Shown: piece after piece, positions 14,072-20,320 of the stretch
How the letters are laid out: the number at the start of each line of letters is the position of its first letter
Numbering within the stretch: position 1 is the stretch's first letter
Origin: Megasphaera paucivorans
GTDB lineage: Bacteria > Bacillota > Negativicutes > Veillonellales > Megasphaeraceae
Direction: 5' to 3'
DNA: 64,000 nucleotides
Assembly: GCF_900103535.1 (NCBI RefSeq)
Contig: NZ_FNHQ01000006.1
Span: 1 to 64,000, forward strand
Notes under the pieces: generated by a model
The model's input: only the letters and a program-made list of their open reading frames with translations
What the model was told of the DNA's origin: nothing
Databases searched by the model: none
Translations under genes and position numbers: made by a program

Positions 14072-15409
14072 TTACCAAATCATATATTTTTCCGCTTCTT
14101 GACGAAGCCAATCTCGAAAATCAGGATGTGCAATTTCAATCAAAGCTTCTACTCTTTCTCGTACATTAAGACCGCGCAGCCATGCGACACCATATTCAGT
14201 AACAACATAATCCGTATCATTGCGTGAAGTTGTTACTGCTGCTCCTGGTGCCAAAAACGGCACTATTTTTGAATGAAGCATTTCCTGTCCGTTTGCATCT
14301 TTTGTCATGTATGTCGAATGCATGGCAATAATAGATTTCCCTTCATTTGACATTTGCGCTCCCTGCACCGTTTCCGACTGTCCGCCGGTTCCAGACCATT
14401 GCAGATTTCCGACTGTTTCTGATGCACATTGCCCTGTCAAATCAACTTCCAGAGTAGCATTGATAGAAACAAATTTATTATTTTTACCGATTGTATAGGG
14501 ATCATTGGTAAATGTACAAGATTTAAAAAGAATAGATGGATTATTGTCAATATAATCATATAACTTCTGTGTTCCCATTGTAAAAGAACAAACAGAATAC
14601 CCATTCAGCAATCCTTTTTGTGAATTATCAACAGCACCACACTCGATAAGATCGACCATTGTTTCTGTAAACATTTCAGTATGTATCCCTAAATGTTTTT
14701 TTGTACGCAGTTCATGTGCCACAGCATTAGGTATATTGCCGATTCCCAGCTGAATAGTGGAGCCATCTTCAATTAATGCTGCAATATGCTTGCCAATCAT
14801 TGCATCCACTTCTGTATAGGGTGCAATGTTAGCAATCGGAATAGCACGATCAGATTCAACGACAGCTGCCACTTCTGAAATGTGAACCTGTGTGTCTCCA
14901 AATGTCCGGGGGAAATTCGGATTTACTTCTAAAATGGCTATCGCACCTTGGTTAATAAGATCACGTTCATAAATAGCGCTGATGGAAAGAGATAAATATC
15001 CGTGTTTATCCATAGGAGATACGGTTGCCAAAACAACGGGCCGGCGTTTTTCATACCGAACTCTGCGATCTATCGTTTTGCGAAGAATCGAAGTAGAACT
15101 CTGTGGAATATCACTTGTTAATTTTTCTTTTTGAGATTGTCTGCAAGCTCCAGAAAAAAACCAACCGTTATGTGTCATGACACCTTTCATTTCCTGATCG
15201 TGAAGCCATGGATAATCTTTCAACGGCAAACAGGTATTTAAAATAGTATTTTTAACTCCTGTTTTTTTCAAATATTGCATTTTATCCAATATAGCGGCTG
15301 GTTCTCCGGCTGCCTGCGCACTAAAAATATAATCATTGTCTTGAATCAGTTCTAAGGCCTGTTCTGCTGTCATTAATTTTTGTGCATACATTGCTTCCTG
15401 CATTGTCAT
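14072..15409 (-). CDS. Acetyl-CoA hydrolase/CoA-transferase family protein (4-hydroxybutyrate/butyrate:acetate type)
   Basis: A 445-residue class I CoA-transferase of the Cat2/AbfT/butyryl-CoA:acetate group. Seen are the glycine-rich oxyanion loop LGIGNIPNAV near residue 225 and GIHTEMFTE near 245, where Glu245 matches the catalytic glutamate that forms the CoA thioester. It transfers CoA between an acyl-CoA (often acetyl-CoA) and a carboxylate; acceptor specificity cannot be read from sequence. GGGGAGG precedes the start. It lies 35 bases after an MFS transporter gene in the same direction, so the pair likely imports and activates the same carboxylate. Confidence 0.88.
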   Translation of the reverse strand: MTMQEAMYAQKLMTAEQALELIQDNDYIFSAQAAGEPAAILDKMQYLKKTGVKNTILNTCLPLKDYPWLHDQEMKGVMTHNGWFFSGACRQSQKEKLTSDIPQSSTSILRKTIDRRVRYEKRRPVVLATVSPMDKHGYLSLSISAIYERDLINQGAIAILEVNPNFPRTFGDTQVHISEVAAVVESDRAIPIANIAPYTEVDAMIGKHIAALIEDGSTIQLGIGNIPNAVAHELRTKKHLGIHTEMFTETMVDLIECGAVDNSQKGLLNGYSVCSFTMGTQKLYDYIDNNPSILFKSCTFTNDPYTIGKNNKFVSINATLEVDLTGQCASETVGNLQWSGTGGQSETVQGAQMSNEGKSIIAMHSTYMTKDANGQEMLHSKIVPFLAPGAAVTTSRNDTDYVVTEYGVAWLRGLNVRERVEALIEIAHPDFRDWLRQEAEKYMIW

Positions 15410-15444: not shown

Positions 15445-16668
15445 TTATTTATTACTTTTTTCTTTTTTTGATTTTCCTGTTTCAGGTAACAGAAATGATC
15501 CAAAAAAAGCGGTTGCACTGACTACAACAGCAACAGTCAGTCCTGTTGCATATCCTGATTTATCAATAACCATGCCAATGATAAAAAATACAATGGTTTC
15601 AATAATATAAGCCAACGCCCAAAAAATGCCCATAATTTTAGTCAGCTTAACAGGCGTCATATTTGGCAGTTCCTGTGGTATCATAAACAAGCTGGTTACA
15701 GGAATAAACATAAGATTCCCTATCGCAAAGGCTGCTGCTAACGCGATAAAACCATTTGTTGTCGTAAACATCAGCACACCAGCTGCAGTAAGAAGAAATC
15801 CACATATGCGTATAACCGGCAGCCGTTTGAAGTATACTTTAGATAATAAAATGGTAATGATCGTACCAACAATACCTCCAAAAGCAACTACGACACTTAA
15901 TGTTTTAGAACTAATAACAGTTGTCCCTGATATAGGAAAAATATTGAGCAGTACAATATAAAATGTCAAAATTCCCGAATAGGTAAATGGCAAAATCCAA
16001 TTGTTTTTTTGTTTTAAAGCGGTCCTGAAAGAATATTCTTCCTTTACTACATTATTTTCTCTTGAATTGCTCGCAGTATTCAATGCAAAATCCTGCCCCA
16101 CCAGAAGCCATAATAAAAATAAAACGCCGCTGATGCCGGCAAAGAATCCCATACTGGCCTGCCAAGTCTGCATAACTGCAATAACAGGACCAACAACCAA
16201 CATCGCCAGCATACCTCCGACATTATATGCGACACTATTAAGAGCATTGACAGTAGGACGTGTTTCTGGTTTAAAATAATTGATTACAACCGGACTAAAA
16301 TAGACTACATAAACAGCTCCCCCAAACCCCATAATAAAGCGGCCTAATACAAATGCCCAATATTGAGGTGACAAAACAGCAACAAGGCTGCCAATCACGA
16401 TCATAAAAGATCCTAACCCAATAGCTTTTCTTGGCAGTAGTTTGATCAATAATCCTGCTGCACAAAAATTACCAATAATTTTCGCTACTGTAATGGAGTT
16501 AGAAATAAAAGTTGCCGACATAAATGAATCCAACTGAAAATATTTCATAATCTGAGGCGTTAATGTACTTCCTGCAATCCAATTGACAGCAAATAATGCA
16601 TAGGTAAGAAACATAACTAATTCAATTATATTTGCTTTTGTTGATGAAACTCGTTGTTCTTCAAACAT
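15445..16668 (-). CDS. MFS transporter, probable carboxylate carrier
   Basis: A 407-residue twelve-helix MFS protein. The start is the ATG before FEEQRVSS, with GAGGAGGAT upstream; a 31-codon longer frame runs through the promoter and is rejected. TM segments begin at ELVMFLTYALFAVNWIAG, and the MFS A-like loop appears as LLIKLLPRKAIGLGS. It is first in a two-gene operon with the CoA-transferase. Its promoter carries 11-bp-spaced repeats adjacent to the STAND/BTAD regulator gene. Cargo is inferred, not seen: likely a short organic acid. Confidence 0.85.
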   Translation of the reverse strand: MFEEQRVSSTKANIIELVMFLTYALFAVNWIAGSTLTPQIMKYFQLDSFMSATFISNSITVAKIIGNFCAAGLLIKLLPRKAIGLGSFMIVIGSLVAVLSPQYWAFVLGRFIMGFGGAVYVVYFSPVVINYFKPETRPTVNALNSVAYNVGGMLAMLVVGPVIAVMQTWQASMGFFAGISGVLFLLWLLVGQDFALNTASNSRENNVVKEEYSFRTALKQKNNWILPFTYSGILTFYIVLLNIFPISGTTVISSKTLSVVVAFGGIVGTIITILLSKVYFKRLPVIRICGFLLTAAGVLMFTTTNGFIALAAAFAIGNLMFIPVTSLFMIPQELPNMTPVKLTKIMGIFWALAYIIETIVFFIIGMVIDKSGYATGLTVAVVVSATAFFGSFLLPETGKSKKEKSNK

Positions 16669-16751: not shown

Positions 16752-16794
16752 AGTATAACAAGGAGGAGTTACGTATAAGTTACACAACCGTTAC
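16752..16794 (-). promoter_or_regulatory. SARP-type promoter of the MFS/CoA-transferase operon with three 11-bp-spaced repeats
   Basis: On the minus strand GTAAC occurs three times at exact 11-base intervals (complement starts at 16768, 16779 and 16790). With one flanking base each side they read TGTAACG, TGTAACT and CGTAACT. The last copy is followed after nine bases by TATACT, a good -10 box, and there is no good -35 box. Streptomyces SARP/BTAD activators bind heptamer direct repeats every 11 bases, with the last about 8 bases from the -10, which is this layout. The BTAD protein gene lies immediately upstream. Confidence 0.7.
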
Positions 16795-16840
16795 AAAAAA
16801 GAACTGTCCTTTAATTTTTTCTAAAGGACAGTTCTTTTTT
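16795..16840 (-). terminator. Terminator of the STAND/BTAD regulator gene
   Basis: A stem with 19-base arms, including A and T runs, around AAAAAGAACTGTCCTTTA. It begins immediately after the regulator stop codon and directly abuts the repeat-bearing promoter of the next operon. Confidence 0.9.
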
Positions 16841-16841
16841 C

Positions 16842-19800
16842 TCAATAGGATTTGTAAGTTTGATATATATGATTGGTTTCTTCGGATGGCTCTATAGCTA
16901 ATTCACTTCTTAACGTGATCACACACTGCCGATATACCCTTTCCAATAGTGACTTATTATGTTGTTCTCCATAACATTGCATTTTTAATTGATACGCTCT
17001 TTCCCAGCAATTATCAATTTTCAATATACGCTCTGCCCATGAAAATGCCTGTTCATATTCTTTTTGCTGTACATACAAACTTGACAATTTTTCCGCGCTT
17101 TTAATCGCCATAAGTTGCAGACGGTCACGCTCCCGCAGTGATACATCATCCAAATATTCACCGGCAAGATATTCGCCTTCATACAAAGCGAGTGCTCGCA
17201 GAAACAGTTGCTTACTTTGTTCTTTATCTCTGCGGAGCCATGTGTCCGCTTCCATAACAGCACGTTCAAACTGTTCTACATCAGTCAAGCACGCTGCATT
17301 GATTACTAATTGCAGGGATGTATCTTTTTTTACAATAAATTTGCTTTCCGTTCTAGGCTTGCGGTCGGGCTCCAAAATTTTTATCAATTGATTTAAAACA
17401 ACCTTAAAATTTCCAAGTGCAACTTTCTTTTCCACATCCGGCCAAAGAAACAGCATTAATTTTTCCTTGTCAACCGGTGCCTCCCGCATAGCAATCAATA
17501 AAAATAACAATTGCTTTGCTGCTTTACGATGCCATTTTTGACTGCTGATTTCCTGCCCTTGACACAAAATCTTAAAACCACCAAACGTCTTTATATATAA
17601 AGTCGGAAAATACTCTTGTTTCAAGCGATGACAAGATTGCAAAGAATCTTGCTGTAAAAATTCATAATATTCTCGAAACGGGACAATGGTAAAACCCGTC
17701 ACATCTCCCAAAAAAGTTTTTTGTTCCAATAAAAAAGAAACATGATATTTTTTACAGTAATAAAGTAATTGTTCATATGAATTGCAGAATTTTTTTTGTT
17801 CTTTCAAATGGTAATATTGATAAGTGAGCTGCCAATAACATGCAGATTGTCCAAAATAGTCTCCACATTTTTCAAACAAAGCTAACGCTTTGCAGGAATA
17901 CGCCTCTCCTTCATTATAATGACGGCATAACGCTGCGCTCATACCTAACGTATGATACATCATAGCCGTAAACCAAGCATCATGGCCTTTTTCAGAAATA
18001 GCAATAGCCTGCAAGCCTATTTGCTCTGCTTCTGTCCAGTTACCGTCAAGTGCCTCCATTAAACATCGGCCTTCATATATTTCTGTTTTCCCGCGTTCTA
18101 TTCCTAATTCATCTGCCATTATCTGTGCCTTTTCATAGGCTTGCCGGCAAATTTCTCTCGTGTGGCGATAATCCAACAGCAATGCATGTCCCGTTCTCAC
18201 ATAACCAATGACTGCAATAAAAGGAGATTGTATTTTATCAGCAAAAATAATACTGGAACGAGCATATTTCAAAGCACGTTCCGAATCTCCCATGTAGGAA
18301 TAACAAAGAGACAAAATCAATGAACTTTCACGAAAGGAGCAGGGTGTGCGATCTATATCTTCAGATTTTAATTTTCGTTCCAGCAAGGTTATTACTTTTT
18401 GTATTTGACCTGTACGCAGCAAGATTCGAGCCTGTAGATTATTTTTATCAACCCTGTTAAAGGGGACCACATGATGACGCAGCCGTAAATATCGTTCTGC
18501 CCTGCGAGACTGTCCATGATTGATCGCATTTTCACTCATAAGGTATAAAAGCTCGCCTTTTTCATCCTCCTGCCTGCTCCCCAGTAGTTTATACGCCTGA
18601 CGCAGGTACTTTTGAGCCTGATTGGGCTGGATGATATCAAGATATACTTCTCCTAAACCATGACAGCTCTGACTCCAACCTAAAAAATCATGTTTGTCCT
18701 TAAATTGTTTTTCTGCTTGTTTATACCAATAGACAGCTTTTCCATAGGAACTGGAAAAACGTGCCCAGTCCCCCAAAGCTAAGTATATACAAGGATTTTG
18801 CTGATATTTATGGGGCAATTTAAATAGATAGTCACCAAAAACTTTTTGTCTGCCGCTGTTCACCCAATACCGGCAAACTTGTGCCAGAATCTCAGACGCT
18901 TTTTGCCACTGTTCTGCTAAAATATAAAAATGAAGTGCCGATTCGCTGGAATTTTGTTTGTAATAAAACTCTCCAATATTTTTATATATGATTTTTATAT
19001 TTTGAAAACGAACAGCCGCTTCAAGTCGTAAAAATTCTTTAAATAGCGAATGGTAGCGATACACCCGATTTCCTATACGTGAGATAAAAAGTCCTGTTTT
19101 AATCACAGATTCCAGCAAATCAATCGCATCAACAGGTGCGTCCCGGCAAACTATTTCCCGGCAATACGCTAAATCAAAATTCTCAACCAGCGATGTCATC
19201 ATAAGAAAATTTTGTATTTCCGGAGCTTGCCGGCTAAAGACATCATGACTCAAATATTCAAAAAAATGTTCCATTCCAATATGACTGCTGGCATCTACCA
19301 TCAAATGCCCTGGATTTTCCTTAAATTGATTCGCCAATAGCTTGACAACAATAATCCAGCCCTCCGTTTGCTCCCATATCATATTTATCTCTTGCTTTTC
19401 AAGAGAAGACGAGGTGACTAAATGAAGAAATTCTTCTATTTCGTCAGAAGTAAAAAGAAAGTCAGTAGGAAAAAAATCAAGAACGCTTCCTTTCATGCGC
19501 AATCGTTCTATCTGCGGTAAATTAACATACTCCCGTGACAAAATAATCACATGAATATGTGCCGGAATGCTGGCCAGAAAACGATCAAAGAATGTACAGA
19601 TATCAGAATCTTTTTGGACACTTTGCCAATCATCAATGACTACATACCCTTCTGCCTCAAGAGTATCAAATTTTTCAATTCCCAGCATGAGACTAAAAAA
19701 AAGGATATTCCAGCTTAAATCATCTTCCTGTTCTACATGGGCACAATACCATGATTTAATCCCAGGAAATAACGAATCCATTGCCGCTGCCAAATAAATA

Positions 19801-20039
19801 GAAAAAAAGTATAAACTGCTGTCCTCCGGCCCTAGATTATACCATCCCAAGGGTAAGCGCTGTTGTTTTTCTGACAAATATTGTACTAAAGTCGTTGTCT
19901 TTCCATATCCTGCTCCAGCAGTCAAAACAGTCACGGGATACTGGAGAATTTTTGATAATTTTGAATAAAGTTTTCTTCTTGGTATCACTTTATCATCTAA
20001 AGTTGGTACTGTTATTTTACTAACTAATATATCCCTCAT
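16842..20039 (-). CDS. Large STAND-ATPase transcriptional activator: MalT-like NTPase, TPR array, C-terminal BTAD/SARP DNA-binding module
   Basis: A 1065-residue signal-transduction ATPase. The N-terminal NTPase resembles MalT (Walker A AGAGYGKTTT at residues 41-50; Walker B in GYVVIDDWQS near 140). The middle is a long helical TPR-like region (residues about 350-780). The last 250 residues begin LYIKTFGGFKILCQGQEIS and contain a winged helix ending LMLFLWPDVEKK, then a BTAD helical domain with LYEGEYLAGEYLDD. This is AfsR-like content with the DNA-binding module at the other end. Start: the ATG before RDILVSK with AAGGAGA upstream; an ORF six codons longer is less supported. Likely activates the adjacent MFS/CoA-transferase operon on ligand and ATP binding. 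Confidence 0.85.
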   Translation of the reverse strand: MRDILVSKITVPTLDDKVIPRRKLYSKLSKILQYPVTVLTAGAGYGKTTTLVQYLSEKQQRLPLGWYNLGPEDSSLYFFSIYLAAAMDSLFPGIKSWYCAHVEQEDDLSWNILFFSLMLGIEKFDTLEAEGYVVIDDWQSVQKDSDICTFFDRFLASIPAHIHVIILSREYVNLPQIERLRMKGSVLDFFPTDFLFTSDEIEEFLHLVTSSSLEKQEINMIWEQTEGWIIVVKLLANQFKENPGHLMVDASSHIGMEHFFEYLSHDVFSRQAPEIQNFLMMTSLVENFDLAYCREIVCRDAPVDAIDLLESVIKTGLFISRIGNRVYRYHSLFKEFLRLEAAVRFQNIKIIYKNIGEFYYKQNSSESALHFYILAEQWQKASEILAQVCRYWVNSGRQKVFGDYLFKLPHKYQQNPCIYLALGDWARFSSSYGKAVYWYKQAEKQFKDKHDFLGWSQSCHGLGEVYLDIIQPNQAQKYLRQAYKLLGSRQEDEKGELLYLMSENAINHGQSRRAERYLRLRHHVVPFNRVDKNNLQARILLRTGQIQKVITLLERKLKSEDIDRTPCSFRESSLILSLCYSYMGDSERALKYARSSIIFADKIQSPFIAVIGYVRTGHALLLDYRHTREICRQAYEKAQIMADELGIERGKTEIYEGRCLMEALDGNWTEAEQIGLQAIAISEKGHDAWFTAMMYHTLGMSAALCRHYNEGEAYSCKALALFEKCGDYFGQSACYWQLTYQYYHLKEQKKFCNSYEQLLYYCKKYHVSFLLEQKTFLGDVTGFTIVPFREYYEFLQQDSLQSCHRLKQEYFPTLYIKTFGGFKILCQGQEISSQKWHRKAAKQLLFLLIAMREAPVDKEKLMLFLWPDVEKKVALGNFKVVLNQLIKILEPDRKPRTESKFIVKKDTSLQLVINAACLTDVEQFERAVMEADTWLRRDKEQSKQLFLRALALYEGEYLAGEYLDDVSLRERDRLQLMAIKSAEKLSSLYVQQKEYEQAFSWAERILKIDNCWERAYQLKMQCYGEQHNKSLLERVYRQCVITLRSELAIEPSEETNHIYQTYKSY

Positions 20040-20320
20040 TCTGTCTCCTTCTCCCACATCGGACTTCTGCCAAAAATATTAGAATATCACCATGTTGTCT
20101 ATAGTACTATCATAATACGAAATTCATCATTCGCAAAATGCTAAAGAAGAATAATTACCTGATATACATTTTTTATAACTATAACATAAATATCACATAT
20201 GCAATATAGATTTTATCATATTTGAATTTTAAAAAAAACAATCGACCATAAGCCTAATCTATGATATGATAATATTCAGGTTATATATACCATTAAAATT
20301 ATTATTTGGGGGCAGAGATA

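Follow-up and report, generated by a model that had tools for sequence, protein, structure and literature searches.

Closest described systems

To our knowledge, SARPs have been studied almost exclusively as actinomycete antibiotic switches. In their promoters, direct repeats are spaced by 11 or 22 bp, and 8 bp separate the 3' repeat from the -10 element (PMC10936776). AfsR, the large SARP of Streptomyces coelicolor (PDB 8hvr, 8k60, 8jke), binds as protomers lying side by side, one per repeat and each contacting 8 bp, and positions sigma region 4 where a -35 contact would otherwise be made (PMC10936776). Two further systems are related in part: EmbR of Mycobacterium tuberculosis, which has a winged-helix (wHTH) and BTA fold followed by a C-terminal FHA domain, and MalT, the STAND activator of E. 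coli, which ends in a LuxR-type HTH.

Here, a window of 64,000 nucleotides from Megasphaera paucivorans was analyzed together with 380 genomes of the class. The reading of one of its genes as a STAND activator gated by a ligand, with its SARP module in reversed position, is supported by domains and fold, by two promoters that match, by conservation and by linkage in genomes, with a probability of roughly 0.8. Such an activator would control the hydrolysis of esters, the uptake of carboxylates and CoA activation.

Domain architecture of the regulator

The regulator gene (16842-20039, minus strand) encodes 1,065 aa from an ATG at 20039, with an alternative GTG possible at 20057. Residues 6-450 (18690-20024, minus strand) constitute a STAND NTPase of the MalT type with Walker A (GAGYGKTT) and Walker B (VIDDW) motifs. 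This region matched the NCBIfam MalT model at E 5.7e-59, its score of 200 bits lying under the equivalog cut-off of 537, and a profile built from four regulator orthologues matched MalT (8bob) at E 6.7e-42 over profile positions 5-385. A TPR_12 match (residues 655-724; 17868-18077, minus strand) was found inside the presumed sensor region. An OmpR-type winged helix at about residues 814-919 (17283-17600, minus strand), with its recognition helix at about residues 871-889 (17373-17429, minus strand), was placed by the AF2 model, the AfsR alignment and Foldseek; it had no Pfam match and was visible in the AfsR profile alignment and the model. The BTA(D) domain (residues 919-1060; 16860-17285, minus strand; BTAD PF03704, E 1.6e-15) is contiguous with it, as in SARPs, and the module occupies about residues 814-1060 of 1,065, at the C terminus and not at the N terminus where SARPs carry it. 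No receiver domain was matched in the Pfam and NCBIfam domain searches, and no LuxR-type HTH in the Pfam, NCBIfam and profile searches, the SARP module standing at the C terminus instead.

In a profile search with the last 260 residues of eight orthologues, AfsR was matched over the full module at E 8.8e-9, against only 0.03 for PhoB. The AF2 model of the C-terminal module (mean pLDDT 93.6) gave AfsR in its transcription complex, then EmbR, as best Foldseek matches (TM 0.79-0.82; EmbR, 0.82). Because of the AfsR profile match and the match of the model to AfsR and EmbR, the C terminus is considered, in structural terms, a SARP module which, judging by sequence and model, is located behind a MalT-type NTPase and TPRs. 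An earlier note on this DNA, made from the sequence, had read a MalT-like NTPase, a TPR region and a C-terminal winged-helix/BTAD module; domain matches, profiles and the AF2 model bore this out.

The regulator thus shares with AfsR an OmpR-type wHTH and BTA module together with an NTPase and TPRs, but the order of domains is the opposite and the NTPase is of the MalT type. It resembles MalT in the NTPase and in having a C-terminal DNA-binding module, the latter being a SARP module in place of the LuxR-type HTH; MalT-like gating by inducer and ATP is presumed. EmbR, in contrast, has no NTPase or TPR. A genome-wide homologue search found no second homologue of the regulator in its own genome, and the literature on BTAD regulators in Firmicutes or Megasphaera, where matches were mostly noise, yielded no described homologue.

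Promoter adjacent to the regulator

Downstream of the regulator gene, the minus strand reads TTTTTT GTAACGGTTGT GTAACTTATAC GTAACTCCTCCTTGT TATACT. GTAAC occurs at 16790-16794, 16779-16783 and 16768-16772 (minus strand), the third copy being followed by T and lying ten bases before the -10 hexamer TATACT (16752-16757, minus strand), which is kept in the aligned promoters. No -35 paired with TATACT was found in a consensus promoter scan, and none of 3,000 dinucleotide shuffles of this intergenic region attained the GTAAC triplet. The three copies, their exact 11-bp spacing and the missing -35 were thus as the earlier note had them, but its distance of nine bases to the -10 was not: ten were counted, and nine is obtained only when GTAACT is taken as the unit. 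The distance from GTAAC was 10 in every aligned promoter except that of G005, where it was 9; it becomes 8, the SARP value, when the unit is the heptamer GTAACYN, with which the 11-bp arrays would fit AfsR geometry. In common with AfsR promoters, 11-bp direct repeats replace the -35 at a short fixed distance from the -10; unlike them, the word is GTAACY, often in three copies.

In the profile alignment with AfsR, W74, E68 and K95 are kept in the regulator and R87 is replaced by lysine; among the regulators aligned, the position of E68 is invariant and that of E76 mostly acidic, as read from sequence. The AfsR DNA-contact residues T88 and R94 are not kept, a change that fits a different word as expected, though it is not proof.

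An inverted repeat ending in a T-run (16795-16840, minus strand), detected as a self inverted match and presumed to be the terminator of the regulator gene, abuts the array. It was missed by a simple mechanical terminator scan, which counts its T-run as part of the stem. In both promoters of M. paucivorans, both of G001 and that of G363, the array is directly preceded by such a T-run from a terminator-like hairpin, which might act as an UP-like element or insulator.

Binding of the regulator could also repress its operons, as repeats over the -35 position could block polymerase. Array placement, however, agrees with SARP activation, a BTA domain is present and, because no usable -35 exists, there would be little to repress; repression is accordingly regarded as highly improbable and activation as the preferred reading.

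Predicted target operons and a second site

The predicted first target gene encodes an MFS transporter (15445-16668, minus strand), identified by its domains, with orthologues of 97-79% identity beside the regulator in G001, G005 and G002. The second encodes a CoA-transferase of the acetyl-CoA hydrolase / butyryl-CoA:acetate type (14072-15409, minus strand), identified by domain matches, with orthologues near the regulator in G001, G002, G005 and G349.

A whole-genome pattern count found two copies of exact GTAAC-N6-GTAAC-N6-GTAAC in the 2.9-Mb genome. The second, on contig 20 (L004 8404-8430), is unlinked to the regulator and likewise lies ten bases before TATACT. The operon that follows encodes alpha/beta hydrolases, a tannase/3HB-oligomer-hydrolase-like esterase and an S-layer-homology porin, the porin domain being scored on the G358 homologue. 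Two of the hydrolases had a short-chain PHA depolymerase model as best match, under its cut-off, and the esterase matched tannase and 3HBOH; these matches make hydroxyalkanoate esters, or esters like them, a plausible though unproven substrate, any catabolic substrate assigned from gene families being a guess. The second hydrolase gene is split between two frames (L004 6731-7463) and may be a pseudogene or reflect a sequence error.

Conservation and linkage in relatives

Full-length orthologues of the regulator were found within the family in the congener Megasphaera sp. UW_MP_MEG2_1 (G001; 94% identity), G002 (53%) and G005 (47%), and elsewhere in the class in G363 (about 48%), G367 (43%), G358 (37%) and G349 (29%). 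MFS and CoA-transferase genes accompany the regulator in G001, G002 and G005, in differing gene orders. In G363 and G367, the gene directly after the regulator is an orthologue of the first hydrolase of the second M. paucivorans operon (54 and 52%, respectively). In G358, two hydrolase genes come after the regulator, first a homologue of the second hydrolase and next the first-hydrolase orthologue (47%), and homologues of the esterase and porin also flank the regulator; in G349, a ketoacyl-synthase-III-like gene and a CoA-transferase (48%) follow. By gene order in relatives, therefore, both of the operons with a common predicted operator in M. paucivorans are linked to the regulator in other genomes.

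The triplet occurs at the same two promoters in G001 and in no other of 17 family genomes. Outside the family, G363 carries GTAACTACATG GTAACTTACCG GTAAC-10-TATACT, and G367 carries GTAAC/GTGAC/GTAAC-10-TAGAAT, three repeats with one base changed. Two repeats plus 10 bases to the -10 were found at each of two promoters in G358 and at one in G349, while G005 has a weaker version (GTAAC-N6-GTTAC with a 9-base spacer). In 7/7 readable loci, GTAAC repeats were thus located either in the gap between the regulator and the gene that follows or ahead of the operon, the promoter of G002 being cut off at a contig edge. The conservation check proposed with the earlier note accordingly gave identical architecture in G001 and G363 and variants in G367, G358, G349 and G005; its view of a SARP-style promoter outside actinobacteria is backed by this conservation and by the AfsR/EmbR fold match. 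The MFS gene of G002 is truncated at the contig edge by a stretch of which an inverted copy lies at the opposite contig end (L016 1-300, 5740-5973), probably an insertion element; the missing 5' part was not found in a search of that genome.

In shuffle tests, the score of each locus was attained 0-1 times per 3,000 dinucleotide shuffles, except for G005, which was not significant under the fixed pattern (545/3,000 shuffles for two repeats, 115 for three). Among the 380 class genomes, the triplet followed by N10 and TANNNT had exactly five sites (two in M. paucivorans, two in G001 and one in G363), all of them promoters of the MFS gene or a hydrolase operon in genomes carrying the regulator. 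When one mismatch was allowed, the G367 site was recovered along with 21 sites spread over 16 further genomes, versus two for the reversed control. A chance origin of the repeats was ruled out by the shuffles and genome counts.

The two M. paucivorans sites also share a terminator tail (81% over 63 bases), as would be expected if the repeats were remnants of a terminator/promoter cassette copied between them and the promoter were constitutive or otherwise controlled. The flanks are, however, unrelated in G363, G367, G358 and G349, where repeats and spacing are nevertheless retained, and the promoter has no -35 in the consensus scan; such an origin therefore has very little probability beside the preferred reading of an operator bound by the regulator.

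An exact GTAACT pair with a -10 (L070 1501-1532) precedes a LivK-type binding-protein gene in G349, about 9 kb from the regulator; this gene is a possible third type of target.

Look-alike GTAACA sites

Repeats that mostly read GTAACA, spaced alike and equally far from a -10, occur in relatives without the STAND regulator (L066, L067, L062, L061, L063, L065, L068, L069, L095, L099, L109). They comprise part of the one-mismatch sites as well as two-repeat sites in regulator-less Megasphaera-type genomes, and they precede envelope-type genes encoding, according to their translations, outer-membrane, TolC-like, RND and small secreted proteins and an OmpR-family regulator. Because of these sites, 11-bp GTAAC repeats are not unique to SARPs, and the proposition that they always mark a STAND regulator was dropped. 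A CpxR-like response regulator probably reads the GTAACA sites, which would make them an envelope regulon of the CpxR kind in Negativicutes.

These look-alikes with their probable CpxR-like reader pose the serious rival, namely that all such repeats are boxes of OmpR-family response regulators (CpxR- or PhoB-like) and that the STAND regulator reads something else. OmpR-type proteins are known in general to bind 11-bp direct repeats, the look-alikes share the geometry, and an OmpR/HisK two-component pair (L004 8515-10497) adjoins the hydrolase operon upstream and could supply the reader. Response regulators of the CpxR/PhoB type have a winged helix related to that of the STAND regulator, and their look-alike boxes occur in its own clade, but they are receiver-controlled instead of STAND-controlled, have no BTA domain, and differ in flanking base and gene set. 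Against a response regulator, GTAAC sites adjoin the STAND regulator in 6-7 loci with varied neighbors and two-component genes mostly absent nearby, and exact triplets are restricted to three regulator-bearing genomes. Moreover, a pyrimidine follows the 3' repeat in 10/11 regulator-linked versus 0/16 envelope-type sites (Fisher 1.3e-6), or in 7/8 versus 0/16 after removal of near-duplicates, with classes assigned by gene neighborhood and the distinction noticed prior to counting. Flanking base, linkage and genome-wide count together favor the STAND regulator as the predicted reader of GTAACY arrays, and we consider a response regulator in that role unlikely.

The predicted second target operon, its linkage to the regulator elsewhere and the GTAACA class, which probably belongs to a different regulator, extend beyond the earlier note.

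Proposed mechanism

Binding, activation, gating and substrate of the regulator are what we infer from the above. An inducer, probably a carboxylate, a hydroxyacid or a compound derived from an ester, would bind in the TPR region and ATP in the MalT-type NTPase, and together they would expose or multimerize the SARP modules; this gating is proposed by analogy with MalT and AfsR. Adjacent modules would then each bind one GTAACY repeat, with one module to every turn of the helix, at the position of the missing -35. By holding sigma region 4, they would allow RNA polymerase to open the TATACT -10. The adjacent MFS and CoA-transferase operon and the unlinked operon for hydrolases, secreted esterase and porin would thereby be turned on. 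Their combined products may form a route from outside ester to cytoplasmic CoA thioester, the regulon suggesting ester hydrolysis outside or in the periplasm, followed by uptake and CoA transfer.

Other SARPs of the class and implications

SARPs with the AfsR domain order were also found in the class (L111-L122, L130), as was a sister clade of reversed SARPs (L123-L129). A first motif-free test of these other loci, with a fixed distance of 14-16 bases, gave no signal. In the widened test, 7-mers recurring at 11-bp spacing ahead of a -10 were present in 5/7 sister-clade loci versus 0-2 at other spacings, a result that is partly post hoc. Since the test was widened after looking, the words in the flanks of L124, L126, L127, L128 and L129 (TGTTGAG, TTGTTCA and TTGKTAA, i.e., TTGTTAA/TTGGTAA) are a lead only. 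Three AfsR-order loci (L112, L114, L119) had TTTGACR/TTGACG-like pairs at 11 bp beside the SARP genes, while AfsR-order loci as a group had no excess at spacing 11.

The odds are about even that Negativicutes harbor a SARP lineage with two domain orders, each with its own 11-bp word beside the gene (GTAACY; TGTTGAG, TTGTTCA, TTGKTAA, TTTGACR), and hence that AfsR-like sigma adaptation under effector control is used by bacteria in general to regulate catabolic genes, with a word predictable from the neighborhood.

Unlike AfsR and the actinobacterial control of secondary metabolism ascribed to SARPs, the regulator belongs to a Megasphaera-type genome of the Negativicutes and has predicted catabolic targets (MFS, CoA-transferase and esterase genes). 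The case provides a non-actinobacterial SARP with a predicted regulon and conserved predicted operators of testable word, and its reversed architecture uncouples domain order from SARP function. It opens the question of the ligand bound by the STAND sensor, and raises that of whether SARP sigma adaptation may operate when the sigma factor is an ordinary one and the actinobacterial helpers RbpA and CarD are absent.
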